DNA of 64,000 nucleotides from Dokdonella koreensis DS-123 (lineage in GTDB: Bacteria > Pseudomonadota > Gammaproteobacteria > Xanthomonadales > Rhodanobacteraceae). Under the pieces are notes generated by a model that was not told the DNA's origin, ran no database searches, and saw only the letters and a list, made by a program, of their open reading frames with translations. The first letter of the stretch is position 1; every line of letters starts with the position of its first letter. Below are positions 33,361 to 46,803 of this stretch, in pieces. The stretch lies in assembly GCF_001632775.1 (NCBI RefSeq), contig NZ_CP015249.1, forward strand, positions 2,336,686-2,400,685. Reading direction: 5' to 3'. The position numbers and the translations under genes were made by a program.

Positions 33361-35868
33361 TCAAGCGGCGAGTTCACGCGGCCGCAGCAGCCAGCGGCAC
33401 AGGGCCGGCAGGAATACGATCGCGGCGACCATGTTGACGACGAACATGAAGGTCAGCATCACGCCCATGTCGGCCTGGAACTTCAGGTCCGAGAAGACCC
33501 AGGTGAACACGCCGACCGCCAGCGTCAGCGCGGTGTAGAAGATCGCGATGCCGGTGGTCTTGAGCGCAGAGAAGTACGATTCGGTCAGCGACTTGCCGGC
33601 CAGCATCGCCTCGCGCATCCGCGCGAAGATGTAGATCGCGTAGTCCACGCCGATGCCGACGCCGAGCGCGATCACGGTCAGCGTATTGACCTTCATCCCG
33701 ATATCCAGCTCGACCATCAGCGCATGGCCCAGCTCGGTCACCAGCACCAGCGGCAGCACGATGCACAGCGCCGCCAGCGGGTTGCGGAAGCTGACCAGGC
33801 ACATCACGAACACCGCCGCGTAGAGCAGCAGCAGCATCGTGCGCTTGACGGCCCGGACCTCGTCGTTGGTCGCGGCCATCACGCCGACGTTGCCGGTCGC
33901 CAGGCGCAGGTTGAGCCGGTGGCTCGAGAACGTCTCGCCGCGTGCCTGGGCGGCGGCGGCCTCCGCGGCGAGCTGCTCGCGCAGGTTGACGTCGGGCCCG
34001 GCGAACAGGCCGTTGCTGTCGCGGAACGCCTTCACCGCGGCGACCACACGGTCGATCGTCGTCGCCCGGTGGTCGGTCAGGAACATCATGACCGGCATCG
34101 CGCTGCAGTCGCCGTTGAGGAGACCCGTATCGGTCTCGAAGCCCTGCGTGTCCTGGCGCAGCGTGTCCGAATCACGCGGCAGCGCGCGGTAGCGGACGTT
34201 GCCTTCGTTCCAGCCGGCGTGCACCAGCTTGGCCGCGCTCGGCAGCGTCATGACCTGGGCCACGCCCTCGACGTTGCGCATGTGCCAGGCGAAGCGGTCG
34301 AGCGTCTCCATCACCGGAAAGCTGGCGATGCAGGCCGAAGGTGCCGCCTCGGCGATGACGTTGAGGATGTCGACGCCGAGCGCGAACTTGTCGCTGATCA
34401 GCCGCGCGTCCTGGTTGTAGCGCGCCTCGGGCCGCAGCTCGGCGACGCCTTCCTGCGCGTCGCCGATCATCACGCGGCTGCCGTAGTGGGCGGCGACCAG
34501 CCAGATCGCCGCGCCGACCACGATGATCACGGCCGCCGGCAGCGGCCGCGCGAAGCGGGCCAGCACCGCCCAGAGCTTGTCGAACTGCGTCAGCTGCCGC
34601 AGCCGGTACTCGCGCTTGCGCGGCAGGTTGCGCAGGCGGGTGTAGGACAGCAGGACCGGCAGCAGCACCAGGTCGGTCAGGATCGTGAGGCCGACGCCGA
34701 TCGTCGCGGTGATCGCCAGCTCGAAGATGATCCGCACCGGGATGATGAGGATCGTCGCGAAGCCGATGCAGCCGGCGACCAGCGCGACCGAGCCGGGCAC
34801 CAGCAGCATGCGGAACGCGAGGCGCGCCGCGGTGACCGGATCGACGCCTTCGCGCCGGCGCAGCTCCTCGACGCTGCCGTCCTCCAGGCCGCCGAAGAAC
34901 AGCTCGCCGCGGAAGCGGTTGATCATCTGCTCGCCGTGGCTGACCGCGATCGCGAAGATCAGGAACGGCGTCAGCATGTTCATCGGGTCAATGCCGAAGC
35001 CGAGCAGCCGCAGCGCGCCGAGCATCCACAGCACCGAGATCAGCGCGCAGAACACCGTCAGCGAGGCCAGCTTGACCGACGAGGAATAGGCGAACAGCAA
35101 CAGCCAGGTGAAGGCGATCGTCACGAAGAAGAAACCGATCACCGAGCGCGCGCCGTCGGTGATGTCGCCGACCATCTTGGCGAAGCCGATCACGTGGACG
35201 CCGATCCGCTCGTTCTCGTACTTCTGCCGCAACGCCTCGAGCTGCCCGGCGATGCGGTTGTAGTCGACGTGGATGCCGTGCTCGGGGTCTTCCGGCACCA
35301 GGTCGACCCAGACCATCGCACCGGAGAAATCCTTGGCGACCAGCCGCCCGACGATGCCGGCCTTGACGATGTTGTCGCGCACCGCCGCGAACTGCTCGGG
35401 CGTCGGCGCGAAGCCTTCCAGGTTCGGTGCGAAGCCGTTCGGGATCACGTTGCCGGCGTCCAGCCCGTCCTCGACCACCTCGATGTAGCGCACGTTCGGC
35501 GTGAAGATCGAGCGCAGGCGCGCCTCGTCGACGTTGTCGATGCTCTTGGCGTCGAGCGTGATGTTCTCGATCGCCTGCATGAACGGCAGGTTGAACATGT
35601 CGCCGCCCTTGTCGACCACGGCGATCAGGATGCGGTTGGCGCCACCGAAATCGCGCTCGTAGTCGAGGAAGGTCTGCATGTACTCGTGCTGCAGCGGCAC
35701 CTGCTTCTTGAAGCCGGCGTCCACGCGCAGCTGCGCGGCGAAGAACGCCATCGCCAGCGTGACCAGCGCGAAGAGGATCAGCACGGCCGGCCGGTTGCCG
35801 AAGACCAGCCGCTCGGCGAAGCGGTGGAACGCGCCCGGATCGGTCGCGCTTGCGGGGTTGTGGTTCAT
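33361..35868 (-). CDS. MMPL/RND-superfamily permease of the DUF1302/DUF1329 cluster
   Basis: An 835-residue inner-membrane protein with the RND layout: helix 1 near residue 25-48, a large periplasmic domain (about 49-240), five or six clustered helices, a second periplasmic domain (about 470-640) and the final helix group. The second half contains IALGVGIGVDYAIYIFARMREA, the GxxxDY motif conserved in MMPL/SSD transporters. Such permeases move hydrophobic molecules such as lipids or sterols. Its start overlaps the stop of the propeller gene (ATGA), so the two are made in a fixed ratio. Confidence 0.9.
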   Translation of the reverse strand: MNHNPASATDPGAFHRFAERLVFGNRPAVLILFALVTLAMAFFAAQLRVDAGFKKQVPLQHEYMQTFLDYERDFGGANRILIAVVDKGGDMFNLPFMQAIENITLDAKSIDNVDEARLRSIFTPNVRYIEVVEDGLDAGNVIPNGFAPNLEGFAPTPEQFAAVRDNIVKAGIVGRLVAKDFSGAMVWVDLVPEDPEHGIHVDYNRIAGQLEALRQKYENERIGVHVIGFAKMVGDITDGARSVIGFFFVTIAFTWLLLFAYSSSVKLASLTVFCALISVLWMLGALRLLGFGIDPMNMLTPFLIFAIAVSHGEQMINRFRGELFFGGLEDGSVEELRRREGVDPVTAARLAFRMLLVPGSVALVAGCIGFATILIIPVRIIFELAITATIGVGLTILTDLVLLPVLLSYTRLRNLPRKREYRLRQLTQFDKLWAVLARFARPLPAAVIIVVGAAIWLVAAHYGSRVMIGDAQEGVAELRPEARYNQDARLISDKFALGVDILNVIAEAAPSACIASFPVMETLDRFAWHMRNVEGVAQVMTLPSAAKLVHAGWNEGNVRYRALPRDSDTLRQDTQGFETDTGLLNGDCSAMPVMMFLTDHRATTIDRVVAAVKAFRDSNGLFAGPDVNLREQLAAEAAAAQARGETFSSHRLNLRLATGNVGVMAATNDEVRAVKRTMLLLLYAAVFVMCLVSFRNPLAALCIVLPLVLVTELGHALMVELDIGMKVNTLTVIALGVGIGVDYAIYIFARMREAMLAGKSLTESYFSALKTTGIAIFYTALTLAVGVFTWVFSDLKFQADMGVMLTFMFVVNMVAAIVFLPALCRWLLRPRELAA

Positions 35869-36989
35869 GGCAGCTCGACCTCGCCGATGCCGTTCTCGCC
35901 GACCAGCAGCAGGCGCTTGCCGTCGAGCGCGAGCGCACCGGCGATCACGCCGGCCGCCGGCTGGACCATCGGCCTGAATGCCTCCTCTCCGCCGCGGCGC
36001 GCCAGCACCACGCCGTTGGCGCCGACCAGCACCGCGCCTTCGCCGTCCAGGGCGCTGCCGCCCATCAGTCCCTGCTCGGTGCCGCTGGCGCGTTCGGTCC
36101 AGTGGTCGCCGAGGTCGGTGGTCTCGAAGACGTGGCCGCGCAGGCCGTAGGCCAGCACGCGATCGCCTTCGTAGCCGATCGCGCCGAACATCGAGCCGTC
36201 GTACGGGAGGCGTATCCGCTGCCAGGTGGCGCCGTCATCGCGCGAACGGAACGCGCTGCCGCGCTCGGCGAGGATCATCAGGCTGCCGTTGCCGGTGCGG
36301 GCGATCGCGTTGAGGTGCGGGTCGGACTCCTCGCCCAGCGCGAGCTCGTCCTTGCTGAAGACCATCGACTCTTCGCCCGTCGCCTCGCCCACTGCCTCGC
36401 CCGCTCCAGGGGCCGCCGCGGCGCCGGCCGGTGGTGCCGGCGCCACCGCCAGCGTCTCGGCATTCCAGGTGACGCCGCCGTCACGCGTCACCAGCAGGCG
36501 GCTGTAGGAACCCACCGCGATGCCGTGCCGGTCGTCGGTGAACAGCACGTCGAGCAGGGGCGCGCCGTGCCGCGGGTCATCGCTGGCCGCCGTCCCTTTC
36601 GCATCGTAGGTGTCGCGGTGCTGGACGACCCAGTGCCTCCCGCCGTCGCTGCTGTGCACGATCACGCCTTCGTGCCCGACCGCCCAGAGCGCATCGCCGC
36701 GGGCGGCGACGGCGGTCAGCATGACCCGCACGGGCACGTCGGCCGACTGCGTCCAGCTGCGCCCGTCGGTGGACAGCAACACGTGGCCGCGATCACCGAC
36801 GGCGACGTAGCCCTGTGCGGTACGTGCGGCGTCGAGCAGCAGCGAGCGCGTCGCCAGCGGCATTGCCTCGGCCGGCGAGGAAACCGGGTCGGGCCACTCC
36901 ACGGTCGCGGCGGCGGCGGGTGCGGCGATCGCCGTGGCGCAGAGCGCCGCGAACATCCCGCGGCAGCGGGAAAGCTGGGGTCGGTTCAT
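35865..36989 (-). CDS. YCF48-like beta-propeller protein (secreted)
   Basis: A 374-residue periplasmic protein with a signal peptide (hydrophobic stretch 12-28, Ala-rich cleavage site). Repeated blades with the Asp-box-like pattern S-x-D-x-G-x-x-W appear: LLSTDGRSWTQ, VHSSDGGRHWVV, VTRDGGVTWNAE, RSRDDGATWQR and ETTDLGDHWTE. That is the YCF48/BNR-type seven-bladed propeller. An Ala/Gly-rich insert (about 185-205) is low complexity. YCF48 homologues act as assembly factors; here translational coupling to an RND permease suggests a periplasmic partner of the pump. Confidence 0.88.
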   Translation of the reverse strand: MNRPQLSRCRGMFAALCATAIAAPAAAATVEWPDPVSSPAEAMPLATRSLLLDAARTAQGYVAVGDRGHVLLSTDGRSWTQSADVPVRVMLTAVAARGDALWAVGHEGVIVHSSDGGRHWVVQHRDTYDAKGTAASDDPRHGAPLLDVLFTDDRHGIAVGSYSRLLVTRDGGVTWNAETLAVAPAPPAGAAAAPGAGEAVGEATGEESMVFSKDELALGEESDPHLNAIARTGNGSLMILAERGSAFRSRDDGATWQRIRLPYDGSMFGAIGYEGDRVLAYGLRGHVFETTDLGDHWTERASGTEQGLMGGSALDGEGAVLVGANGVVLARRGGEEAFRPMVQPAAGVIAGALALDGKRLLLVGENGIGEVELP

Positions 36990-37147
36990 GGCAGCGCGTG
37001 ACTCGGCAGGCCGTTCGTTTCGGAGGCACCGGCGGCGTGCCGGCATGGGCGCGGTTGCGTCCCGGAGGATATCGGATGCGGCCGGGTCCCGTCGCGCGCG
37101 GCGCCGCGACGTCCCGCGCAGACGGCACAGGACGCCGCCCGGGGCAT

Positions 37148-37177
37148 CCCCAGGCCGGCGCCTAAACGGGCCTGGGG
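37148..37177 (-). terminator. Hairpin between DUF1329 and propeller genes
   Basis: On the minus strand a 9-bp perfect stem (CCCCAGGCC/GGCCTGGGG) with a 12-base loop lies 31 bases after the DUF1329 stop, in a 218-base gap. There is no T-tract. It may reduce read-through from the lipase-DUF1302-DUF1329 part to the propeller-RND part, or cap the mRNA. Confidence 0.45.
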
Positions 37178-37207
37178 ACGAAGCTCCGGACCGCATGCGC
37201 GGCCGGT

Positions 37208-38584
37208 CTACTGGATGCCGCGCTGGCGCAGCGAGTTGGGCGAGAACGCGTCGGGCGTGAGCTGGATCGAGAAGTTGTAGCCCGACTCCTCGTTGTCGAG
37301 GCCGCCGACGATGTAGCGCCCGTTCTTGAGGTCGTGGTGGGTCTCCAGCGTCGACCAGAACGTCGGCAGGTCGTAGTAGGTGATGCTGGGTGCCTCGGAG
37401 TAGCGCCACAGCTTGCCGTCGGTGTCGTAGTGGTCGGTCAGCAGGATCTGCCAGCTGTCCTCGTCGAGGTAGAACGTGCGGCGGGGATTGATGTGGCTCA
37501 TGCCGGGCTTGAGCGTCGCCTCCACCACGTAGGCACGGTGCAGCTCGTAGCGCAGCAGCTCCGGGTTGATGTAGCCGGGCTTGATCAGCTCGGCGATCTT
37601 CGCGGTGTGCGCCTTGTAGGAGTTGTACGGCACGTACATCTCGCGCTTCTCGACCAGCTTCCAGTCGTAGCGGTCGAGCGCGCCGTTGAACATGTCGAGC
37701 ATGTCCGAGGTGCGCAGGTTGTCCGACGCGGTTCCCGGGTTGTCGTAGGCGACCTGCGGCGCACGCCGCACGCGGCGCTGGCCGGGATTGTAGACCCAGG
37801 CCTGGCGCGGCGAGGCCTTGGCGTTGAGCGTCTCGTGCACGAGCAGGATCTGGCCGGCGTAGCGCGGCGGCGAGGTCACTTCCTGGTAGAAGTAGATCAG
37901 GATGTTGTTGATGTTCTCGACCGTGGCGCCCGGGCGGAAGTACGGCGACAGCGTCTGCTCCTTGATCCGCACCAGCGTGTACTGGCCGCTGGCGGTCGGC
38001 ATCGCCTGGTTGTACCAGTGGTCGAGCGTGATGCCCTTGAACTTGAGCTTGTGGTTCCAGATCGCCTCGGCACCGGCGGCGGCCGGATCGGCGCTCAGGA
38101 TCGGGAACGGCAGGCCCTGCGAGACATTGGCGACACCGTCGCTGCCGCTGACCAGCTCGCCGGTGGCGGCGTTCTTGATCGTCGCCTCGTAGATCGCCTG
38201 CGGGAAGGCGGCGCTGCGGCGGGTCGGGTAGACCACCATCTTCCAGTTCGGGTACTTCTCGAACATCGCGATCTGGCCGGCCGACAGCTTGTTGCCGTAG
38301 GTCTTGTAGTTCTGCGCGGTGATCTCCAGCGTCGGCTTGTCGTCCGGATACGGGTCGACCTGCTGGGTACCGGGCTTGAAGCCGGCCGGCGCCTGGGTGA
38401 TGCCGCCGTCCCAGGCCGGGATCGTCCCGTCCGCGCTGCCGGCGCGCAGCGCACCGGTCGGCGTGAGCGGCGTGCCGCTGATGCCGAGCTTGGCGACCTC
38501 GCCGGCCGGCGCCTTGGCCGCCGCCGTCGAGACGCAGGCCGCCGACACCGCGAGCGCGAGGAGTGTTTGCTTGAGAATCGTCAT
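37208..38584 (-). CDS. DUF1329 family secreted protein
   Basis: A 458-residue protein with a clear Sec signal peptide (cleavage after about Ala22). The rest has DUF1329 hallmarks: LTPTGALRAGSADGTIPAWDGG, NPGQRRVRRAPQVAYDNP and RRTFYLDEDSWQILLTDHYD. It is probably periplasmic, with a LolA/LolB-like beta fold as suggested for the family, so it may carry lipid between membranes. It starts 17 bases after the DUF1302 stop. Confidence 0.9.
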   Translation of the reverse strand: MTILKQTLLALAVSAACVSTAAAKAPAGEVAKLGISGTPLTPTGALRAGSADGTIPAWDGGITQAPAGFKPGTQQVDPYPDDKPTLEITAQNYKTYGNKLSAGQIAMFEKYPNWKMVVYPTRRSAAFPQAIYEATIKNAATGELVSGSDGVANVSQGLPFPILSADPAAAGAEAIWNHKLKFKGITLDHWYNQAMPTASGQYTLVRIKEQTLSPYFRPGATVENINNILIYFYQEVTSPPRYAGQILLVHETLNAKASPRQAWVYNPGQRRVRRAPQVAYDNPGTASDNLRTSDMLDMFNGALDRYDWKLVEKREMYVPYNSYKAHTAKIAELIKPGYINPELLRYELHRAYVVEATLKPGMSHINPRRTFYLDEDSWQILLTDHYDTDGKLWRYSEAPSITYYDLPTFWSTLETHHDLKNGRYIVGGLDNEESGYNFSIQLTPDAFSPNSLRQRGIQ

Positions 38585-38601
38585 CGTCTTGGCTCTCCTC
38601 G

Positions 38602-40500
38602 TCAGAACGAATACTTGGCCGTCAGCGCGACGAAGTCGCGATCGTTGATCAGGTTGAAGCTGCCGCCACCGAAGAAGTTGGTGTAGCTGGCGTCGAACAC
38701 CCACTGGTTCATGTAGCTCAGTTCCGCGCCGAGCGTGACCGACTTGCGCCCTTCGAGGAAGTTGCCGCCCGGTCCCGGCGAGGTGCCGTTGACGTCGTGG
38801 TTGAACGCGATGCGCGGCGACAGGTTCATCGCCTTGCCGAAGACGTTGTTGTAGTCGGCACGCGCGGCGACGCGGTAGCCCCACGAGAAGTCGGTCGGGA
38901 AGCCGCCGACCTGGGTGATCGGGTTGCGCAGGCCGCCGCTGTTGACGTCCGGGCCGCCGCCGGTGTCGGTGCCGTCGCCGTTGAAGCGCATGTCGTGCGG
39001 CAGGCTGACCTGGGTGAAGCCCACCTCGCCGACCAGCGAGATCTGGTCCGAGCCGAGGATGTTGCCCGGCCCGAACACCTTGGTGCCGGTCAGCTGCAGC
39101 TGCCACTGCTTGGCGCGCTGGTAGCCGGTGATCTCCTCGCCCGGGCGGAAGTTGCCGAGCTGGCTCTGGAACCGCATCGCCGGCTGCGGGATCACCGCGT
39201 TGAGCGGCGACAGGCCGGCGAACAGGATTTCCACGTCGTCGATCTGGAACGGCATGTTCGGGCGATAGCTGACCTCGCCCTGCAGCGCCACGCCGCTGCG
39301 CTCGAGCAGCGTGTTGAAGCTCAGGCCGAACAGGCGGATGCCTTCCGGATACTCGGTGAAGAAGCTGCCGGAATTGGGCGCGGTCGTCCTAACCGCGTAG
39401 CCGCTGATCAGCGGCACGCGGCTGTGGTACCGCATCGCGTAGAAGCCGAACTCGGTGTTGTTGAGCCAGTCGGCGAAGTAGCGCAGCGCGATGCCGCCCT
39501 GCCCGTCGTCCTGCGGCTTGCGGGTCGGGCTGCGCGGGAACGCCGCGGAGCAGCCGGCCGCGACGAGGTTGGCCGGCAGGCCGGTGTCGCTGGCACCGTA
39601 GTTGCCGTTGACGCAGACCGTATCGAACAGGTTCGGGTTGATCACCGGCTGCGGCACCGTGCCGAAGTTCAGCATCACGTAACGGCCGCCGATCACCGCG
39701 AAGTCGTTGGTCGAGAAGTACGTGCCGACCGGATCGGCATCGGTCTCGTCGTAGTCGAGCTGGTAGAACGCCTCGATCGAGAAGCGGTCCGACAGGTTCA
39801 GCGAGCCCCAGACCATGTTGACCGGCAGGAACGCCTGCTTGAGCTCGGCGCCGGCGACGCGCAGCTTCGACACGTCGACCGGGTTGATCGCGTTGATGCC
39901 GTTCTGGATGAACGTGCTCTCGCCCCAGCTGACCACCTGCTTGCCGACGCGCCAGCTGCCGGTCTGGTCGCCGGCCGTGAAGTTGTTGAACAGGAACGCG
40001 TCGTAGATGCGGGTCTGCGTGCCGACGCGGTTCTTGGCTGCATGCGAGAGGTTGTCGCGGTCCTTGTTCTCGAAGTCGTAGAAGCCGTAGGCACGGATGA
40101 ACGCACCCCAGTTGGCGCCGTAGTTGAGGCTGAGCTCGACGTTGGCGCCGACCGCATTGGAGAACGGATCCCACTGGTCGTAGGCGAGGTTGCCGTCGTC
40201 GCCGTTGACCGAATAGCGGCCGCGCGCCGCGCGCTGGGCTTCGCTGCCGAGACCGAGCGCGCTGACGGTGGGGTCGTAGAAGGCCTTGCCGATCAGGTCC
40301 GAGTCACGGTCCTGGACGCGTACCGAAATGCCGTACGACAGCGTCGTGTTGAGCGTGCCGTGGAAACCGTCGTCGCTGCCGAAGCTGATCGCGGCGGCCG
40401 GCCCGGCCAGGCCCGCCAGCGCCAGCACCGTCGCTGCCGCCAGCGCATTGGGCGTGAGGCCGATTACGCGCGATCCGCGTTGGATGTTCGTCTTGTTCAT
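38602..40500 (-). CDS. DUF1302 family outer-membrane protein
   Basis: A 632-residue protein with a signal peptide (cleavage after about Ala37) followed by sequence with the alternating hydrophobic/polar strands of an outer-membrane beta-barrel. DUF1302 signatures include the start GFHGTLNTTLSYGISVRVQDRD, RVGKQVVSWGESTFIQNGIN and the ending FVALTAKYSF, whose terminal Phe is the usual BAM recognition residue. Partners in the operon suggest it forms the outer-membrane port for a hydrophobic substrate. Confidence 0.92.
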   Translation of the reverse strand: MNKTNIQRGSRVIGLTPNALAAATVLALAGLAGPAAAISFGSDDGFHGTLNTTLSYGISVRVQDRDSDLIGKAFYDPTVSALGLGSEAQRAARGRYSVNGDDGNLAYDQWDPFSNAVGANVELSLNYGANWGAFIRAYGFYDFENKDRDNLSHAAKNRVGTQTRIYDAFLFNNFTAGDQTGSWRVGKQVVSWGESTFIQNGINAINPVDVSKLRVAGAELKQAFLPVNMVWGSLNLSDRFSIEAFYQLDYDETDADPVGTYFSTNDFAVIGGRYVMLNFGTVPQPVINPNLFDTVCVNGNYGASDTGLPANLVAAGCSAAFPRSPTRKPQDDGQGGIALRYFADWLNNTEFGFYAMRYHSRVPLISGYAVRTTAPNSGSFFTEYPEGIRLFGLSFNTLLERSGVALQGEVSYRPNMPFQIDDVEILFAGLSPLNAVIPQPAMRFQSQLGNFRPGEEITGYQRAKQWQLQLTGTKVFGPGNILGSDQISLVGEVGFTQVSLPHDMRFNGDGTDTGGGPDVNSGGLRNPITQVGGFPTDFSWGYRVAARADYNNVFGKAMNLSPRIAFNHDVNGTSPGPGGNFLEGRKSVTLGAELSYMNQWVFDASYTNFFGGGSFNLINDRDFVALTAKYSF

Positions 40501-40528
40501 AGCGTGGACTCCCCAGGATCCCGGTCGG

Positions 40529-42685
40529 TTACTGCGTGCGGATGACGGAAGGATTGGCGACCTGCACCGCGGTGCCGCCGCTGACCAGCAGGCTGGCCAT
40601 CTCGCCCTGCATTTCCGCCGTGGCCGCAGCCGAGGCTGCCGGGCTCAACAGCGAGCCGTGATCGCCCTGGGTGAAGCGCACCGCGCCGCGGATGCCGGCC
40701 GCGTTCTGCGTCGTCGCGGTGATCGAGGCCAGGCCGAGCGCGCGGATCAGCGGCTCGGTGCCGGACAGCGGGGCCCCGGCCACGCTGTTGGGAATCACCT
40801 GGTCGGGCAGCACGTCGCCGCCGCCGACCACTTCCTGCAGCAGCAGCCGCTTGCCGGCGGTCGCGAACGCGAAGTTGACCGGGTCGGCCGAATCGATGAC
40901 GGTCTGGGCCGCGCCGAAGAACGCATCGTAGTCCGGCGTGCCCGGCTGCAGGCCGGCCGAGGCGGCGAGCCCGGCGCGGATGCGCGGCCCGAACGTCGGC
41001 GAGGCTTCGAGCAGGCGCGCGATGCCGCCGCCCGGCACGTTGAGCAGCGCCGTCTGCACGCCCGGTTCGACCGCCATGAAGACGGTGCCGATGATGCCGC
41101 CGAGCGACTGGCCGACGAAGCTGATCCGCGCGCCGTCGAAGTCGGTGCCGGCGCCGCTGGAGATGCGCAGCGACGGCACCGCCTTGGCCAGCGCGATCAG
41201 GTCGGCGGCCGCCTGGCGGATGTTGTCGCGCGAGGTCAGCAGGCTGGTCAGGTTGATGAAGTGCGTGCCCGACGAATCGATCGCGCCGTCGGGACCGGCG
41301 GCGCCGCTGGTGTTGTTGACGTAGTCGACGTTGAACGTGCGCTCGCGCGCGCCGAGCGCCGCGAACGGCGTGTTGCCGACATAGAGCGGGCTGGTGGTGT
41401 CGGTGATGCCGTGCAGCGGCGCATCGATCGCGATCACCGCGAATCCCTGGGCGGCGAGCGTCGCCGCCACCGCGAACGCATCGGTGCGGTTGCGGGTGAT
41501 GCCGTGCTGGTAGATCACGATCGGCCAGCCGGCCGCGGGGCGCGTGCGGCCGGAAGCGGCATTGGGCACCGTCAGCACCAGCGGCACGGTCTGGGTCGAG
41601 GTCGCCACCGGCAGCGGATTGGCGAACGTCAGGTTGGTGGACGTCGGGTCGAGCCCGGCCGCGTTGAATGGCGGCACGTACGCGCCCGGCGCCGCGCGCC
41701 AGAAGCGGTTGAGCGGCGCGGTGGGATTGTCGGCGCTCGGGGCGCTGAGGTAGTACGCCAGGTCGATCACGCCGATGTGGACGTCGGCCACCGGCGGCAG
41801 CGCCGGGTTGATCCCGGCCAGGGTCAGGCCGGTCGGCGCGGTCCGCGTGACCGGTGCCGGCGCCGCGGCGGCGCGCGCACGCACCGCCTGCATGACCGGG
41901 GTGACGCTCTGCGTGGTCGCGACCCAGGACAGCACGATGCGATCACGCGGCACGCCGGCGCCGGCGGCGGCCGCCTCCTGCGCATTGGTCAAGCGGCGTA
42001 CCGGCTCGAGCGCGCACGCGGTGGCGTTGGGCAGCAGCGGTTCGGTGGAAACCCCGTCCACGCACAGCGGGCTGGTGCGCTGGCTCAGGAAATAGGTCTG
42101 GTCCGGCGTCGCGTCATTGCCGCGGGTGTCGGTGATGCCATCGGTCAGCACCGCCATGTACGAGGTCAGCTGCGCGAGCGGGCGGGTCGGCACGATCGCC
42201 AGCGTGCGGCCGGCGGCGTCCGACGTGGGCAATGCCACGACGAAATCGGTGCCCGACTGCAGCTCGCGGGTGACGCCGGTGACCGCGCCGCCAGGGCCGG
42301 TCAGCGTCACCTGGAACACGCGCACGCTCTGCCCGGCGACCACGCTGGCCGGTGCCGGCGCGGCCGAGAAGGTCGTGGTCCAGGGGGTCGCCGTGCTCCA
42401 GCCGTCGAGCGCGTTGATCGCCACGCGCGGATTGGAGTAGTCGTTGGGATTGGGGACGGGGATGTTGAGCGTCAGGTCGGTGGTGCCCGACAGCAGCAGA
42501 TTGGTCGGCGACGGCACGACGCTGTTGCTGGGATCGAAGCGCGCCGTGATGATGCCGGTGATGGGCGATCCGTTGTTGTTGGTCGGTGGATTGACCGGAT
42601 TGCCGCGGGAACTGTTGCTGCCGCCGCTGCACGCGGACAGCACCGCGGTCGCCAATGCGACCGCAAAAATCGATCGGGCCTGCAT
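40529..42685 (-). CDS. Lipoprotein lipase (VolA / Pla-1/cef family)
   Basis: A 718-residue alpha/beta-hydrolase on the cell surface or in the outer membrane. The signal peptide ends in a lipobox LSAC (Cys about 19), then an Asn/Pro/Ser-rich tether. An N-terminal domain like the bacterial virulence-factor lipase N-terminal region covers about 40-330. The hydrolase domain has the oxyanion region PIVIYQHGITRNR, the nucleophile elbow ISFVGQSLGGIIG (G-x-S-x-G) and a late His in FTQGDHGSLLSP; an Asp completes the triad. Relatives release fatty acids from lysophospholipids. GGGGAGGGGATTC precedes the ATG. It is 28 bases from the DUF1302 gene, so it heads the operon. Confidence 0.88.
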   Translation of the reverse strand: MQARSIFAVALATAVLSACSGGSNSSRGNPVNPPTNNNGSPITGIITARFDPSNSVVPSPTNLLLSGTTDLTLNIPVPNPNDYSNPRVAINALDGWSTATPWTTTFSAAPAPASVVAGQSVRVFQVTLTGPGGAVTGVTRELQSGTDFVVALPTSDAAGRTLAIVPTRPLAQLTSYMAVLTDGITDTRGNDATPDQTYFLSQRTSPLCVDGVSTEPLLPNATACALEPVRRLTNAQEAAAAGAGVPRDRIVLSWVATTQSVTPVMQAVRARAAAAPAPVTRTAPTGLTLAGINPALPPVADVHIGVIDLAYYLSAPSADNPTAPLNRFWRAAPGAYVPPFNAAGLDPTSTNLTFANPLPVATSTQTVPLVLTVPNAASGRTRPAAGWPIVIYQHGITRNRTDAFAVAATLAAQGFAVIAIDAPLHGITDTTSPLYVGNTPFAALGARERTFNVDYVNNTSGAAGPDGAIDSSGTHFINLTSLLTSRDNIRQAAADLIALAKAVPSLRISSGAGTDFDGARISFVGQSLGGIIGTVFMAVEPGVQTALLNVPGGGIARLLEASPTFGPRIRAGLAASAGLQPGTPDYDAFFGAAQTVIDSADPVNFAFATAGKRLLLQEVVGGGDVLPDQVIPNSVAGAPLSGTEPLIRALGLASITATTQNAAGIRGAVRFTQGDHGSLLSPAASAAATAEMQGEMASLLVSGGTAVQVANPSVIRTQ

Positions 42686-42826
42686 GAATCCCCTCCCCTT
42701 CGTGTTCTGTAGGCGACGTGTCGGCTGTCGCATCTTAGGCGCTGGCGACTTTGATTTGCAATGCGCCTTCTCAAAAAAAATGTTGCTGCTTCAATATGTT
42801 GCGTCGCACCATACGCAATGGCATGG

Positions 42827-43714
42827 TCACCCCCTCAACACCTCCCCGGCCGGCCGCCAGCACGCCGCGTCAGGCCGGAACGCGCGGGGCGACCAGCCCA
42901 GTTCGGCCACCGCCGCGGCATTGTCGGCGACCAGGTCCTCGGCCAGCCGCTCGACCGCCGCCGCCAGTCGATAGGCACCGTCGCGGCCGCGCCGTAGGCG
43001 CGCCGCCTGCCGCAGCAGTGGTACCGGCAGCGGCAGCGGCACGGTGCGTACGCCGAGGCCCTCGCGCATGCGTTCGAGCATCGCCGCGAACGGCAGGCGC
43101 TCGCCGCCGCCGAGCGGATAGATCCGTCGGTCGCTTTGCCGGCTGCGGGCCGCGGCCAGGCAGGCGGTCGCGAGGTCCTCGGCATGGACCGGCTGGCGCA
43201 GCCCGCGGCCACCGCCGACCAGGCGCGGGAACAACCGGCTGCGCTGCGCGAAGCGCGCGATCGGCGTCAGGCTGCGATCGATGCCGGCACCGTAGATCAG
43301 CGTCGGCCGCAACACGGTCCAGGCCGCGCCGCGCCGCGCGGCCTCGGCCGCCAGCGCGGCTTCGGCGGCCAGCAGGCGCGCGGCCAGCCGGCGTTCCGAC
43401 GCGTCGGTCGATGCGCGCTTGCTGACCGCGCTCATCGAGCCGAACGCAACGACCCGGCCGATGCCGGCACAGCGCGCGGCCGGCAGCCAGCCGGCCAGCC
43501 CGTCGAGCGGCCCCAGGCCGAACACCGCGTCCACCGCCGGCAGCTCCGGCATCGTGCCGTAGAGATCGCCGACCACCCAGCTCACGCGCGGGTGCGTCGA
43601 CGGAGGCCGTGCCTGCCGGCTCAACGCGAGCACCTGCCACCCCGCGTCGAGCAGGCGCGGCAACAGGAAGCGGCCGATCTGGCCGCCGGCGCCCACGACG
43701 AAGGCGACCGGCAT
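42827..43714 (-). CDS. NAD-dependent epimerase/dehydratase (SDR-extended)
   Basis: A 295-residue oxidoreductase of the extended SDR group. The Rossmann dinucleotide loop is FVVGAGGQIGRFLL (G-x-x-G-x-x-G). An RPTLIYGAGID segment matches the family's substrate-binding strand. The active-site Tyr of the usual YxxxK is not obvious; the corresponding region reads VAFGSMSAVSKRASTDASERR, so catalysis may be altered or it may act as an NAD(P)-binding protein. The start overlaps the stop of the receiver-domain gene by one base (TGATG). Confidence 0.8.
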   Translation of the reverse strand: MPVAFVVGAGGQIGRFLLPRLLDAGWQVLALSRQARPPSTHPRVSWVVGDLYGTMPELPAVDAVFGLGPLDGLAGWLPAARCAGIGRVVAFGSMSAVSKRASTDASERRLAARLLAAEAALAAEAARRGAAWTVLRPTLIYGAGIDRSLTPIARFAQRSRLFPRLVGGGRGLRQPVHAEDLATACLAAARSRQSDRRIYPLGGGERLPFAAMLERMREGLGVRTVPLPLPVPLLRQAARLRRGRDGAYRLAAAVERLAEDLVADNAAAVAELGWSPRAFRPDAACWRPAGEVLRG

Positions 43715-44652
43715 CAGTGCACGGCAGCCTGTCGCGCCAGCCGCGCCGGCAGTGCCCGGATTCGCGCCAGCAACGTGGCGGACGGCAACTGCAGCACCGG
43801 CTGGCTGCCGGCGACCGCGCCCAGGGCATGGCGCGGCAGGGCATCCGGACTGCGCTTGATCTGCAGGTAGCGCTCGAGCGCGCTGCCGATCGCCTGCTCG
43901 CAAACACGAAGGTCCAGGGGACGCGCCAGCAGGCGGAACACGCGGGCCTCGTTGACCAGGGCCATCGCGCGTACCGGATCGGGGCGCGTGCAGGCCGCGA
44001 TCGCGAGAATCTGCGGCTGATGCGCCTTGATCGCCTGCAGCCAGCCGCCGAGGTCGCCTTGGCGCGAATCGACCTCGACGAACAGCACGCCGGTCTCGTA
44101 CTGCTCGATCGCGTGGATCGCACGTTCGGCGGAATTGGCGAAACGCACCTGGTAGCGCGCCTGCAATTGCTCGCGCAGGCGCTGCTGCAGCGTCGGATCG
44201 TCCTCGACCACGAGCACGCCGACCTGGTTGCGCGCCCAGGCCTGCTCCTGCGCGCCGGCATGGTCCGGTGCCAGTGCCGGGGCCGCGCGGGCGACCGCAC
44301 CGGCTTCGGCGACCACCGCCTGCAGGACATCGTTGCTGGGCCAGGGCACCGGCGCGACATGCCAGACCTCGCCCTCGTTCACGCCGGCGGCGACGGCGGC
44401 GAAGCTCTCGCGCTCGATCAGCATGATGCGTTCGGCCCGCGGCTGTGCCAGCCGCAGCTCGGCCAGCAGGCGCGAGGCATCGCCGGCCGGGAAGCGCCCG
44501 CAGCACACGACGACGTCGACGTCGTGGTCACGGGCCGTCGCGACCGCGGCATCGGCGCCGTCCACGATCACCTGATGGGCACGCAGCAGCGCCTTGAGCG
44601 TCCGCGCGACCGGCGCCTCGCTGGCGACGACCAGTATCCGCAACGGCTCCAT
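43714..44652 (-). CDS. Tandem receiver-domain protein lacking both phospho-Asp sites
   Basis: A 312-residue protein with two CheY-like receiver domains (about 1-115 and 140-265) and no DNA-binding or enzymatic output domain. In REC1 the acidic pocket reads VVASEAP, without the usual Asp pair, and the acceptor position aligns to Cys51 in VVVCCGRFP. REC2 keeps the acidic pocket (VVEDDP, Glu150-Asp152), but the acceptor aligns to Glu193 in VLFVEVDS, and the conserved Lys is Ala243 in LLARP. Neither domain should be phosphorylated normally. The C-terminal 45 residues are basic and helical. It lies between the degenerate kinase gene and the epimerase gene in one operon. Confidence 0.85.
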   Translation of the reverse strand: MEPLRILVVASEAPVARTLKALLRAHQVIVDGADAAVATARDHDVDVVVCCGRFPAGDASRLLAELRLAQPRAERIMLIERESFAAVAAGVNEGEVWHVAPVPWPSNDVLQAVVAEAGAVARAAPALAPDHAGAQEQAWARNQVGVLVVEDDPTLQQRLREQLQARYQVRFANSAERAIHAIEQYETGVLFVEVDSRQGDLGGWLQAIKAHQPQILAIAACTRPDPVRAMALVNEARVFRLLARPLDLRVCEQAIGSALERYLQIKRSPDALPRHALGAVAGSQPVLQLPSATLLARIRALPARLARQAAVH

Positions 44653-44667
44653 CGAAGCCCTCCCCGG

Positions 44668-45720
44668 TCAGGCCGCAGCCGCCGGCTCGGCCGGCTGCAC
44701 CTCGGAATTGGGGGCGGCCTCCACCGGCAGACTGACCACGAAACGCGAACCCGCGGCCGAGCTGTGCACCCGGACCGACCCGCCATGCCGCTTGACCACA
44801 CGGTGGACGACGGCCAGGCCGATGCCCAGCCCCTGTCCCACCGCGCGCGTCGTGAAGAACGGTTCGAAGATCCGCGCCAGCACGTCGTCGTCGATACCGT
44901 GGCCGCTGTCGGCGACCTCGATCTCGACGGCGCCCGCCTCGCCGCGCCGCGTGACCACCTGCAGCTGGCCGCTGGCCGGCATCGCCTGCACCGCGTTGGT
45001 GACCAGGTTCATCAGCATCTGGCTGAGCTGGGTCGGCACCGCGCGCAGGCGCGGCAGGTCGCCGGCCTGGCGGCGCAGCTCGATCCGGTCGGCGCGCAGA
45101 TGGCCGGTCGCGTTCAGCACCGCGTCGACCAGGGCGTTGAGGTCGATCCACTCGGCGTCCTCCCGCTCGCTGCGGGCATGCGCGCCGAGCCCGCGCGCGA
45201 TGCCGTCCAGGCGCGCCAGGCCGGTGTCGGCGTCTTCCAGCAGGTCGCGGGCGTCGTCCAGGAACGCGCTGCGCTCGAGGCTCTGGCGCGCCTGGAACAG
45301 CTTGCTGCGCGCACCTTCGACGTGCCGGATGACGTTCTCCAGGCTCGCCGGATCGGCGCCGAGGATCAGCTCGACCGGCTGCAGGCAGTACTGCACGGCA
45401 GCGTCGTAGGCCTTGACCAGCTTGCGGTAGTCGGCGATCTGGCCGCTCGCCAGCTGCACGTTGTTGCGCGCGAAGCCGAGCGGGCGCGCCATCTCGCGGC
45501 AGACGCCGGCGGCCAGCTGGCCGAGTCCGGCATAGCCACCGACCTGGGCCACCTGGCCCTGCCGCGCCTCCAGTTCGGCCAGCTCGGCGGCCAGCGCCTG
45601 CTTGCCGCGCTCCAGGCTTTCGCGGCGCGCGACCTCGCGGCGCAGGGCGAGCCGCTGGGCCACCGCCACCACGAGCGCGATCGCCGCCGCCAGCCAGCCG
45701 GCCCAGGCGAGCAGGCTCAT
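44668..45720 (-). CDS. Sensor histidine kinase with Arg in place of the phosphoacceptor His
   Basis: A 350-residue protein with one N-terminal transmembrane helix (about 4-21), a coiled-coil linker (25-58), a HisKA-like helix pair and a HATPase_c domain. The H-box, normally HEI-x-x-PL, reads CREMARPLGFARNN, with Arg75 where the His should be. The ATPase part is intact: N-box NLVTNAVQA (Asn242), G1 DSGHGID (Asp271), F-box FEPFFTTR and G2 GQGLGIGLAVV. It probably still binds ATP but cannot autophosphorylate in the usual place. It precedes the tandem-receiver gene by 15 bases. Confidence 0.87.
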   Translation of the reverse strand: MSLLAWAGWLAAAIALVVAVAQRLALRREVARRESLERGKQALAAELAELEARQGQVAQVGGYAGLGQLAAGVCREMARPLGFARNNVQLASGQIADYRKLVKAYDAAVQYCLQPVELILGADPASLENVIRHVEGARSKLFQARQSLERSAFLDDARDLLEDADTGLARLDGIARGLGAHARSEREDAEWIDLNALVDAVLNATGHLRADRIELRRQAGDLPRLRAVPTQLSQMLMNLVTNAVQAMPASGQLQVVTRRGEAGAVEIEVADSGHGIDDDVLARIFEPFFTTRAVGQGLGIGLAVVHRVVKRHGGSVRVHSSAAGSRFVVSLPVEAAPNSEVQPAEPAAAA

Positions 45721-45754: not shown

Positions 45755-46714
45755 TCACGACCAGGCTCCGATCAGGAACGTCTCGCCGACCACGAACAGC
45801 GCGAACACGGCGACCAGCACCCAGCCCTCGCGGCCGGACAGCTCGCTGTCGCTGCGCATCATCGGATAAAGCGCCACGGCCAGCGCGAACAGCACCGGAA
45901 TCTCGATCCGCTGCAGCGAGCGCGCGACGTCCAGCGGCTGCCAGGCAGCCAGCCCGCCCACCAGCAGCAGGACGTTGCCCAGTCCCGCCACCAGCGCATG
46001 CGCGACCACGAAATCACCCTGCCCGCGGCGTGCCGCTACCAGTGCGGCCGGCAGGCTGGCGAGCGCCGCCGCGATGCCGAGCAGCAGCAAGCCGGCGACC
46101 ACCGGCGCCAGGCCCCAGCCGACGGCCAGCGCCGCGGTGGACCGCACCAGCCACACGGCCGCGAACGGCAGCATCACCACGCCGACGACGACGCGCAGCG
46201 AGTCGCGCCAGACCAGCATCGAGGTGCCGGTCGCGGCCGCCAGCTCGTTGCGGATCGAGGCATCCTCGCGCCGCGCGGAGACGATGGTCGCGATCATCAC
46301 CGCCAGCCAACCGGCGAGCAGGACGATGCCGTCGATCCGGCCGAGCGTCCCGTCGAACGCGAGCAGCCCCAGGAGCACGATGGCGGCCATCAAGGCCGGA
46401 TTGGCCCAGCGGAACAGCTTCAGGCGCACCACCAGCGGTGCCGCCACCGCCGCCAGGCCGAGGATCAGGGCCAGTTGCGCGATGCCGCCGCCGATCAGGC
46501 TGCCCAGCGCGAGTTCCGGCTGGTCGTCGAATGCGGCAGCCAGGATCACCGCCAGCGCCGGCAGCAGCACCCCGAGCGCCGTCGCCGCCAGCGCGACGCC
46601 GTAGCTCCTGGCGCCGCTCCTCAGCAACAGGCCGGAGGCGCCACGGACGAAGGCGTCGTTGCCGAGCGCCAGCAACACCGTGGCCAGTACGAAGATACCG
46701 AGCTGACTGAGCAT
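45755..46714 (-). CDS. Degenerate Na+/Ca2+ exchanger family (CaCA) membrane protein
   Basis: A 319-residue membrane protein with about ten helices in two inverted halves, as in YrbG-type cation/Ca2+ exchangers. The alpha repeats can be traced (ALGVLLPALAVIL at about 47-58 and AALASLPAALVAARR at about 216-230), but the conserved acidic residue of GTS-x-PE is Ala in both (Ala53, Ala223), and the downstream G-N-x-x-GSN boxes read GSLIGGGIAQ and VAGLGNVLL. Classical Ca2+ coordination seems lost. The start at 46714 has GGAGG in front. The gene lies 34 bases upstream of the kinase gene and may be cotranscribed with it. Confidence 0.72.
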   Translation of the reverse strand: MLSQLGIFVLATVLLALGNDAFVRGASGLLLRSGARSYGVALAATALGVLLPALAVILAAAFDDQPELALGSLIGGGIAQLALILGLAAVAAPLVVRLKLFRWANPALMAAIVLLGLLAFDGTLGRIDGIVLLAGWLAVMIATIVSARREDASIRNELAAATGTSMLVWRDSLRVVVGVVMLPFAAVWLVRSTAALAVGWGLAPVVAGLLLLGIAAALASLPAALVAARRGQGDFVVAHALVAGLGNVLLLVGGLAAWQPLDVARSLQRIEIPVLFALAVALYPMMRSDSELSGREGWVLVAVFALFVVGETFLIGAWS

Positions 46715-46771
46715 GACGTCCCTCCCGGGAGGCAGTGTATCGGCTGGCGGTGGCGCCGATGATGCGGCGCT

Positions 46772-46803
46772 GCTCGATTTCAAGCCAGCTCGATTTCAAG
46801 CCA
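46772..46803. repeat. Perfect 16-bp tandem duplication
   Basis: The unit GCTCGATTTCAAGCCA occurs twice without a gap (46772-46787 and 46788-46803), in the 246-base region between the divergent CaCA and ABM genes. It lies 58 bases upstream of the CaCA start, where it could be part of a promoter or a binding site. Confidence 0.85.

Follow-up and report, generated by a model that had tools for sequence, protein, structure and literature searches.

Phosphotransfer from a histidine kinase to its response regulator needs a histidine in the first protein and an aspartate in the second. Homologues in which one of these residues is replaced have been described on both sides: the histidine is missing in 0.9% (722 of 76,471) of HisKA domains (PMC12632262), DivL of Caulobacter is a pseudo-histidine kinase that carries Tyr550 at the histidine site and works without kinase activity (PMC4211667), and a glutamate at the aspartate site of receivers is known, for example in Rim15p (PMC12632262, PMC4395418). 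The activation of bacterial pseudo-receivers was called a mystery in a 2025 review (PMC12632262). Here we describe a linked kinase and regulator from Dokdonella koreensis DS-123 (genome of 4.45 Mb), encoded within a stretch of 64,000 nucleotides (contig NZ_CP015249.1, positions 2,336,686 to 2,400,685) that is referred to as the window and whose numbering is used throughout. The kinase has lost its phospho-acceptor histidine and the first receiver of the regulator its catalytic residues; the regulator is absent from six related species and the ATPase domain from a related genus (g26), yet one helical hairpin of the kinase, named here the tip, is retained in all of them. We consider it fairly probable that this is a pseudo-histidine kinase whose tip docks a putative partner, usually in a locus with a short-chain dehydrogenase/reductase (SDR) gene and a lipase gene. 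The features that carry the argument are the following.

44668–45720, minus strand: pseudo-histidine kinase of 350 amino acids, with an HATPase_c match of 90.6 bits, an N-terminal membrane helix recognized by eye, and a dimerization and histidine phosphotransfer (DHp) domain without its histidine
45496–45498, minus strand: codon of Arg75, at the position of the phospho-acceptor histidine (CREMARPL) in the alignment with orthologues
45283–45432, minus strand: DHp tip hairpin, residues 97–146, conserved through the erosion as judged by column conservation
44719–45039, minus strand: HATPase_c domain, residues 228–334, with ATP motifs kept in the window species and in a second Dokdonella genome, G086
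43714–44652, minus strand: dual pseudo-receiver regulator of 312 amino acids, two receivers (REC1, REC2) and a C-terminal tail, from the open reading frame (ORF), Pfam and alignment
44293–44652, minus strand: REC1, residues 1–120, none of the five catalytic residues kept (A10 and S11 in the acidic pocket, C51 at the acceptor, I79 for Thr, V102 for Lys), from the alignment and a phmmer match to 3hv2
43867–44223, minus strand: REC2, residues 144–262, acidic pocket retained, ancestral Glu193, Thr replaced by Cys221 and Lys by Arg244, from the alignment and phmmer matches to 3kcn and 3hv2

Both ORFs lie where an initial annotation of the window had drawn them, on the minus strand and separated by 15 bases. 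Orthologous pairs were sought in the family (147 genomes), the order (200) and the genus (10), and were found in two other genera of the same family (g14 and g8) and in two further families (f4 and f12); every count refers to species-level genomes sampled out of larger groups, with related genomes not being independent of one another. The Dokdonella set consisted of the window genome and nine others assigned to the same genus. One of them, G110, carries the lipase on a contig that stops 265 bases upstream, and thus represents no loss of the locus, and in another, G131 (85% complete), lipase, SDR and tip all remained without a match at the cut-offs used; with these two uninformative, eight of the ten genomes inform on the locus. 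The nearest named relative is a Dokdonella metagenome-assembled genome, with 76–79% identity across kinase and regulator.

The H-box histidine is present in all 26 canonical orthologues read and in none of the eight Dokdonella kinases, which carry Arg (five times), Ser, Thr or Gly at its position, so that the Arg75 of the initial annotation stands. In a phmmer comparison, Arg75 was also paired with the H-box of ZraS (9jfj), over a very weak stretch of 3.8 bits, and the window kinase gave no Pfam match to HisKA at E 0.1. Identity amounts to 79% with the kinase of G086 and to 36–48% with the canonical orthologues. The names of the H, N, G1, F and G2 boxes and the geometry of the DHp domain follow standard usage. 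By its sequence, being homologous to histidine kinases and devoid of the acceptor, the product of 44668–45720 is a pseudo-histidine kinase.

On the regulator side, REC1 carries both pocket aspartates, the acceptor aspartate, Thr and Lys in 25 out of 25 orthologues and not one of the five in the two Dokdonella regulators (A/V, S/A, C/S, I/F and V/V, respectively), as had been anticipated for Cys51 and the lost acidic pocket; that the domain is a receiver is seen from its match to 3hv2 (phmmer, E 5.7e-8). The regulator count leaves out L047, whose match covers 146 residues only, and duplicates were removed (L010, L039, L040, L056, L057), as were three rows without a kinase (L034, L035, L037). 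For REC2 the picture is different in part. Its acceptor is Glu in all 25 orthologues, with Thr and Lys kept in every one, and the Dokdonella departures at these sites are confined to Cys221 and Arg244, the acidic pair being retained. Glu193 is therefore an old trait that lies outside the loss: its placement at the acceptor, as first proposed, is preferred, while its inclusion among the lost sites, and with it a REC2 locked on by the glutamate as part of that loss, is not upheld. The alanine (Ala243) that had been put at the conserved lysine was a one-residue slip, since Arg244 aligns there (Lys in 25/25). The check on Asp195 as the acceptor gave a mixed answer, as the alignment to 3kcn places this residue at the acceptor by a one-residue gap and the alignment to 3hv2, gapless near the site, places Glu193 there. 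Position 195 is Asp in the two Dokdonella regulators only (A 12, E 11, Q 1 and V 1 in the other orthologues), for which reason Glu193 is preferred. Both domains would thus be pseudo-receivers, REC1 by its C51 and REC2 by a Pfam Response_reg match with Glu193, the latter subject to the 3kcn alignment; even with Asp195 as its acceptor, REC2 would be without the canonical Thr and Lys, and neither domain has the full canonical set of acceptor aspartate, acidic pair, Thr and Lys.

Misalignment as the cause of the odd residues at the histidine, REC1 and REC2 lysine sites was considered and rejected on the strength of the 25–26 orthologues. The check for recent decay, which the presence of His and Asp in close homologues was to reveal, gave a divided answer, since both residues are present outside Dokdonella and absent within it; the loss is thus clade-wide rather than recent. 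That the kinase histidine and the REC1 sites were lost in the same clade fits the loss of one pathway, and REC1 is presumably the receiver that the neighbouring kinase once phosphorylated. As phosphotransfer needs both His and Asp, it appears very unlikely from the residues present that kinase and regulator of the window pass phosphate.

Paralogous pairs exist as well. The window genome carries one at G000:C1:2835524-2837268 (L082), with a canonical histidine, a canonical REC1 and a longer kinase N-terminus, probably CBS-like, and others were seen in G086 (L083) and G131 (L107); in relatives, the REC2 acceptor of such pairs is varied. Among ten paralogous regulators, which are a selection because partial or distant rows were excluded from the alignment (L028, L031–L033, L036, L038, L064, L068), REC1 was canonical in 10/10 and the REC2 acceptor column lacked Asp in 8/10, indicating that a decayed second receiver is usual in the wider family.

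The ATP site of the window kinase, earlier described as intact-looking, has indeed its N, G1, F and G2 motifs. Between the window species and G086 residues 270–302, from the G1 to the G2 box, are identical and N238 and N242 are retained, and both genes are under purifying selection, with a ratio of nonsynonymous to synonymous substitution (omega) that is 0.31 in the kinase, 0.25 in the regulator and lowest in REC2 (0.17, against 0.30 in REC1). These ratios were taken from close pairs, with one exception given below, as the synonymous distances (NG86) were saturated or undefined for distant ones. Such findings would be expected if the pair signalled without phosphate, the kinase binding and perhaps hydrolysing ATP and passing its conformation to the pseudo-receivers by contact. 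Nevertheless, six of the eight Dokdonella genomes have a kinase with no regulator beside it, the SDR gene following directly, and no match to the regulator anywhere in the genome at E 1e-5. All six of these kinases have an ATP lid shortened by two residues, and five have another residue in place of N238; those scanned, five in number, match HATPase_c at 66–79 bits, versus 90.6 in the window. We therefore regard an ATP-driven pair as unlikely. Docking of a partner by the tip, which would need neither regulator nor ATP, is preferred, although an added ATP- or regulator-dependent role is possible in the window species, where both are under constraint.

Erosion has gone further in g26, a genus of the same family. 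All ten of its genomes in the sample encode proteins of 173–211 amino acids composed of a membrane helix, a DHp remnant that in some cases still shows H-box traces (P, L), then the tip, and finally a short tail; the five scanned by Pfam gave no match to HATPase_c or HisKA, which again speaks against an ATP-driven pair. With the regulator gone in six of eight Dokdonella and the ATPase part absent in the ten g26, the ATP-driven signalling put forward by the initial annotation is not supported as the shared function, and is possible in the two species with an intact ATP site. The broader idea of a conserved phospho-independent system fared better, in that a retained protein working without phosphotransfer is supported by the intact frames and purifying omega values; its conservation, however, holds inside Dokdonella only.

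These same values bear on whether both genes are mere relics, decaying after loss of function and awaiting deletion. DHp helix 1 and the HATPase domain are relaxed in Dokdonella, branches are long and the regulator is already absent from six species, all of which would suit decay. Yet the reading frame is intact in each of the 18 eroded genomes read, omega is below 1 in close pairs and the tip is nearly invariant. In g26, omega for the gene and for its tip was 0.13 and 0.09 in G057/G072 and 0.21 and 0.05 in G120/G109, and the more distant pair G057/G026 gave 0.39 and 0.12. Decay appears, consequently, highly improbable, and retention for the sake of the tip is the better account.

Mean column conservation, given for the Dokdonella kinases (n=8) and then for the canonical ones of g14 and g8 (n=11), was 0.40 and 0.98 in DHp helix 1, 0.43 and 0.83 in DHp helix 2, 0.51 and 0.81 in the HATPase domain, and 0.81 and 0.87 in the tip (residues 97–146). 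With columns treated as independent, the tip differed from helix 1 at p 3e-10 and from helix 2 at p 1e-6; the Mann-Whitney comparison with the HATPase domain was undefined due to gap columns. The best-conserved segment of 50 residues starts at 96 in Dokdonella and at 271–273, in the ATP site, in the canonical kinases. Fourteen tip columns (Y98, R99, D106, A108, Q110, C112, Q114, P115, A122, D123, R138, L141, F142 and R145) are identical in 29 of 29 proteins. Silent sites within the tip codons vary, so that the constraint acts on the protein, and an RNA or DNA element beneath the tip was thereby ruled out.

The tip was searched for in the 147 genomes of the family and gave a match in 30, or 29 after a chance match in G030 was dropped: 8 Dokdonella, 7 g14, 4 g8 and 10 g26. 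An order-wide search of 398 genomes with the tip profile A3 gave 29 genomes with a match at E ≤ 0.01, including 19 true tips (5 g1, 5 g14 and 9 g26); the four g8 genomes were not among these matches and are taken as not drawn into that sample. Of the ten weak A3 matches, those in G005, G030, G046, G060, G206 and G360 were discarded as other proteins or, by look, wrong frames, and those in G149 and G157 fall in f4 and f12 kinases; the reading extended neither to G007 and G009 nor to the additional weak hits of G043 and G085. In the kinases of f4 and f12 (L041–L055) the place of the tip lacks about 5 to 14 residues and matches the tip profile weakly at best, so that, as sampled here, the full tip is confined to four genera of the family.

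The relaxed DHp helices are also relevant to a role like that of DivL, RocA or ChrS, i.e. an accessory pseudokinase acting on another, active kinase of the cell by dimerization or modulation. Known pseudo-histidine kinases behave in this way (PMC4211667, PMC7028121, PMC9491836) and the paralogous canonical pair of the window genome could offer such a target. However, helices 1 and 2, which serve dimerization and regulator docking, rank lowest in conservation among the four regions compared, and a paralogous regulator was not detectable in 6/8 of the tip-bearing Dokdonella. An accessory role of this kind is accordingly quite doubtful, and we return to the tip as the site of a separate job, as suggested by its being kept while most of the protein is gone in relatives. 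The tyrosine of DivL is not found at the acceptor of any of the eight kinases, and the phmmer match to DivL (4q20) spans kinase residues 220–339 only.

The neighbouring genes, all read in the same direction, are given here in the order of their coordinates.

33361–40500, minus strand: DUF1302, DUF1329, YCF48-like and MMPL/RND (resistance-nodulation-division) genes, an AmeABCD-like exporter operon from Pfam and by composition as in AmeABCD (PMC6394551)
40529–42733, minus strand: lipase-type protein (Lipase_bact_N), a syntenic neighbour, from Pfam and synteny
42827–43714, minus strand: NAD-dependent epimerase/SDR that overlaps the regulator stop, from Pfam and synteny
45755–46783, minus strand: degenerate homologue of Na/Ca exchangers, lying upstream of the kinase gene, from Pfam and alignment

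Along the minus strand the order is thus exchanger homologue, kinase, regulator, SDR, lipase-type, DUF1302, DUF1329, YCF48-like and MMPL/RND. The run from kinase to DUF1329, six genes in all, occurs in every g14 locus read, namely G014, G050 and G103, and in G207, G183 and G160 out of five f4 loci; the remaining two f4 loci have the pair with the SDR, and in one of them the lipase, too, appears where the stretch ends. In g8 (three loci read) and f12 (five), the surroundings of the pair yielded none of the SDR, lipase and exporter genes of the window. The shared gene order therefore supports orthology for part of the orthologues. The six Dokdonella without a regulator have kinase, SDR and lipase in succession. 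SDR and lipase belong to the gene run of 17 of the 18 eroded genomes, the SDR being preceded directly by the tip gene in 15 of them and, in the other two, by the regulator; in g26 it follows the tip gene directly in nine of ten, with the lipase a little further. Across the 147 genomes tip and lipase occur together in 27, the tip without the lipase in two, the lipase without the tip in 10, and neither in 108.

The lipase gene stands in front of the AmeABCD-like exporter cassette (33361–42733, minus strand). In G086 its match (L084, G086:C1:1021402-1023458) comes in two pieces that abut at residue 508 of the query, as a frameshift or an assembly error would produce. A gap of about 1 kb separates SDR and lipase in g26 and f4 loci (L154 10511–11501, L156, L093 6600–8100) and is absent from the window. 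Inspected by eye, this interval contains an ORF beginning like a signal peptide in two of the g26 loci, and in one f4 locus an ORF resembling a glycosyltransferase gene. In Dokdonella the pseudokinase adjoins a pseudo-exchanger: all seven Dokdonella sequences aligned there (L084, L101–L106) lack the Glu in alpha-repeat motif one as well as the Pro-Glu in repeat two, but both are retained in the one f4 sequence compared (L093), which lies beside a canonical kinase.

We propose that the following course of events links these observations. The ancestor would have been a normal membrane-anchored kinase, presumably phosphorylating REC1 of the adjacent dual-receiver regulator. In the Dokdonella lineage the histidine and the REC1 active site were lost, in an order that can only be conjectured, and the regulator turned into a double pseudo-receiver in two species and was deleted in six. 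The kinase protein was probably retained for a second module, the hairpin between the DHp helices, whose job would not involve phosphate. Membrane helix and DHp domain would hold the tip at the membrane, probably as a dimer, where it would bind a conserved partner, perhaps one of the products of the SDR or lipase locus, and the regulator of the window species would now work without phosphate, if at all. The part retained is the distal end of the helix bundle, neither the histidine region nor the ATP site, and a contact site for a partner common to these species is the simplest inference for the function of the tip. The invariant Cys112 could also have a part as a ligand or in redox chemistry.

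Several points weigh against the docking of a partner by the tip. The co-occurrence of tip and lipase is confounded by kinship, and the presence of the SDR, being found in 144 of the 147 genomes, is uninformative about the tip. The pair of g8 sits away from the lipase, pair and lipase of g14 G091 lie more than 300 kb apart on one contig, G140 of g26 has a tip with neither an adjacent SDR nor a lipase match, and DUF1302 and DUF1329 were not found within the g26 loci. The ATP site is complete in the two species that keep the regulator, although a mere scaffold could do without it. No structure backs the docking of the putative partner, the two-sequence AlphaFold models being unusable at predicted local distance difference test (pLDDT) values of 53.5 and 47.4. 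Finally, the conservation of the hairpin could stem from folding rather than from binding.

The trees conflict on whether Dokdonella and g26 eroded once or twice. The lipase tree separates the two, with a starred branch grouping g8 and g26 on one side and a p-AU of 0.017 (approximately unbiased test) against a single Dokdonella and g26 clade, while they are joined by the SDR tree (98/96) and by the tree of kinase residues 1–152 (98/97), the latter grouping perhaps being drawn by shared relaxation. Residue 117 is Glu in all 18 eroded and Asp in all 11 canonical proteins. Two independent losses, as read from the lipase tree, were dropped as a claim. Dokdonella is monophyletic in the trees of lipase, SDR and full-length kinase but is not so resolved in that of residues 1–152; should it be one clade, and should the ancestor of g26 have had both genes, no fewer than two losses of the regulator would be required.

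A wider proposition, which we put forward tentatively and would rate somewhat below an even chance, is that some histidine kinases carry in the DHp tip a second function independent of phosphate, regulator and ATP, and that kinases of this family lose first the histidine, then the regulator and then the ATPase domain, ending as small membrane proteins that display the tip. If this is true, the canonical kinases of the same family would be two-function proteins. Normal pair, dead pair, kinase alone and tip on a membrane helix, largely within one synteny block, make up a natural erosion series in which the requirements of the kinase for phosphate can be told apart from those for some other task, and the roughly 50 residues with 14 invariant positions in 29 proteins are the place to seek a partner. 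Neither such a series nor the tip is described in the titles and abstract beginnings among the matches listed for searches that were partly by exact phrase and covered the literature in part.

By sequence, the case belongs to pseudo-histidine kinases and pseudo-receivers, which are known kinds. As in DivL, a histidine kinase homologue has another residue at the acceptor and retains the ATPase fold; DivL, however, is described as binding an intact, phosphorylated regulator through its DHp domain (PMC4211667), while here the regulator that belongs to the kinase is either dead or no longer present, constraint on the DHp helices has slackened, and what remains is an additional DHp tip. RocA of Streptococcus and an evolved ChrS with a broken CA domain from Corynebacterium likewise act without the histidine or the CA domain, the targets given being a partner kinase or regulator (PMC7028121, PMC9491836), whereas the partner is here a putative one; besides, the ChrS variant arose in a laboratory strain and natural lineages have here eroded to DHp and tip. 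Aspartate-less receivers resemble REC1 and REC2 as receiver folds without catalytic residues (PMC12632262, PMC4395418), with the difference that the REC1 site was lost in the same clade as the histidine of the linked kinase and that the glutamate of REC2 is ancestral. The canonical orthologues share with PleD (REC-PsR-GGDEF) a canonical receiver followed by a pseudo-receiver (PMC12632262), but neither GGDEF nor another output domain was found here by Pfam. AmeABCD, a tetrapartite RND exporter for monoterpenes in Castellaniella, combines DUF1302, DUF1329 and a further periplasmic protein with the RND protein in one cassette (PMC6394551), and the adjacent genes of the window, taken by composition alone, are assembled likewise; no kinase is linked to AmeABCD in the description consulted, and the resemblance is limited to the neighbouring operon, which may possibly give the setting for the pseudokinase locus. 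What sets this locus apart from the known systems is the loss in both linked partners, the graded erosion across species and the retained tip.

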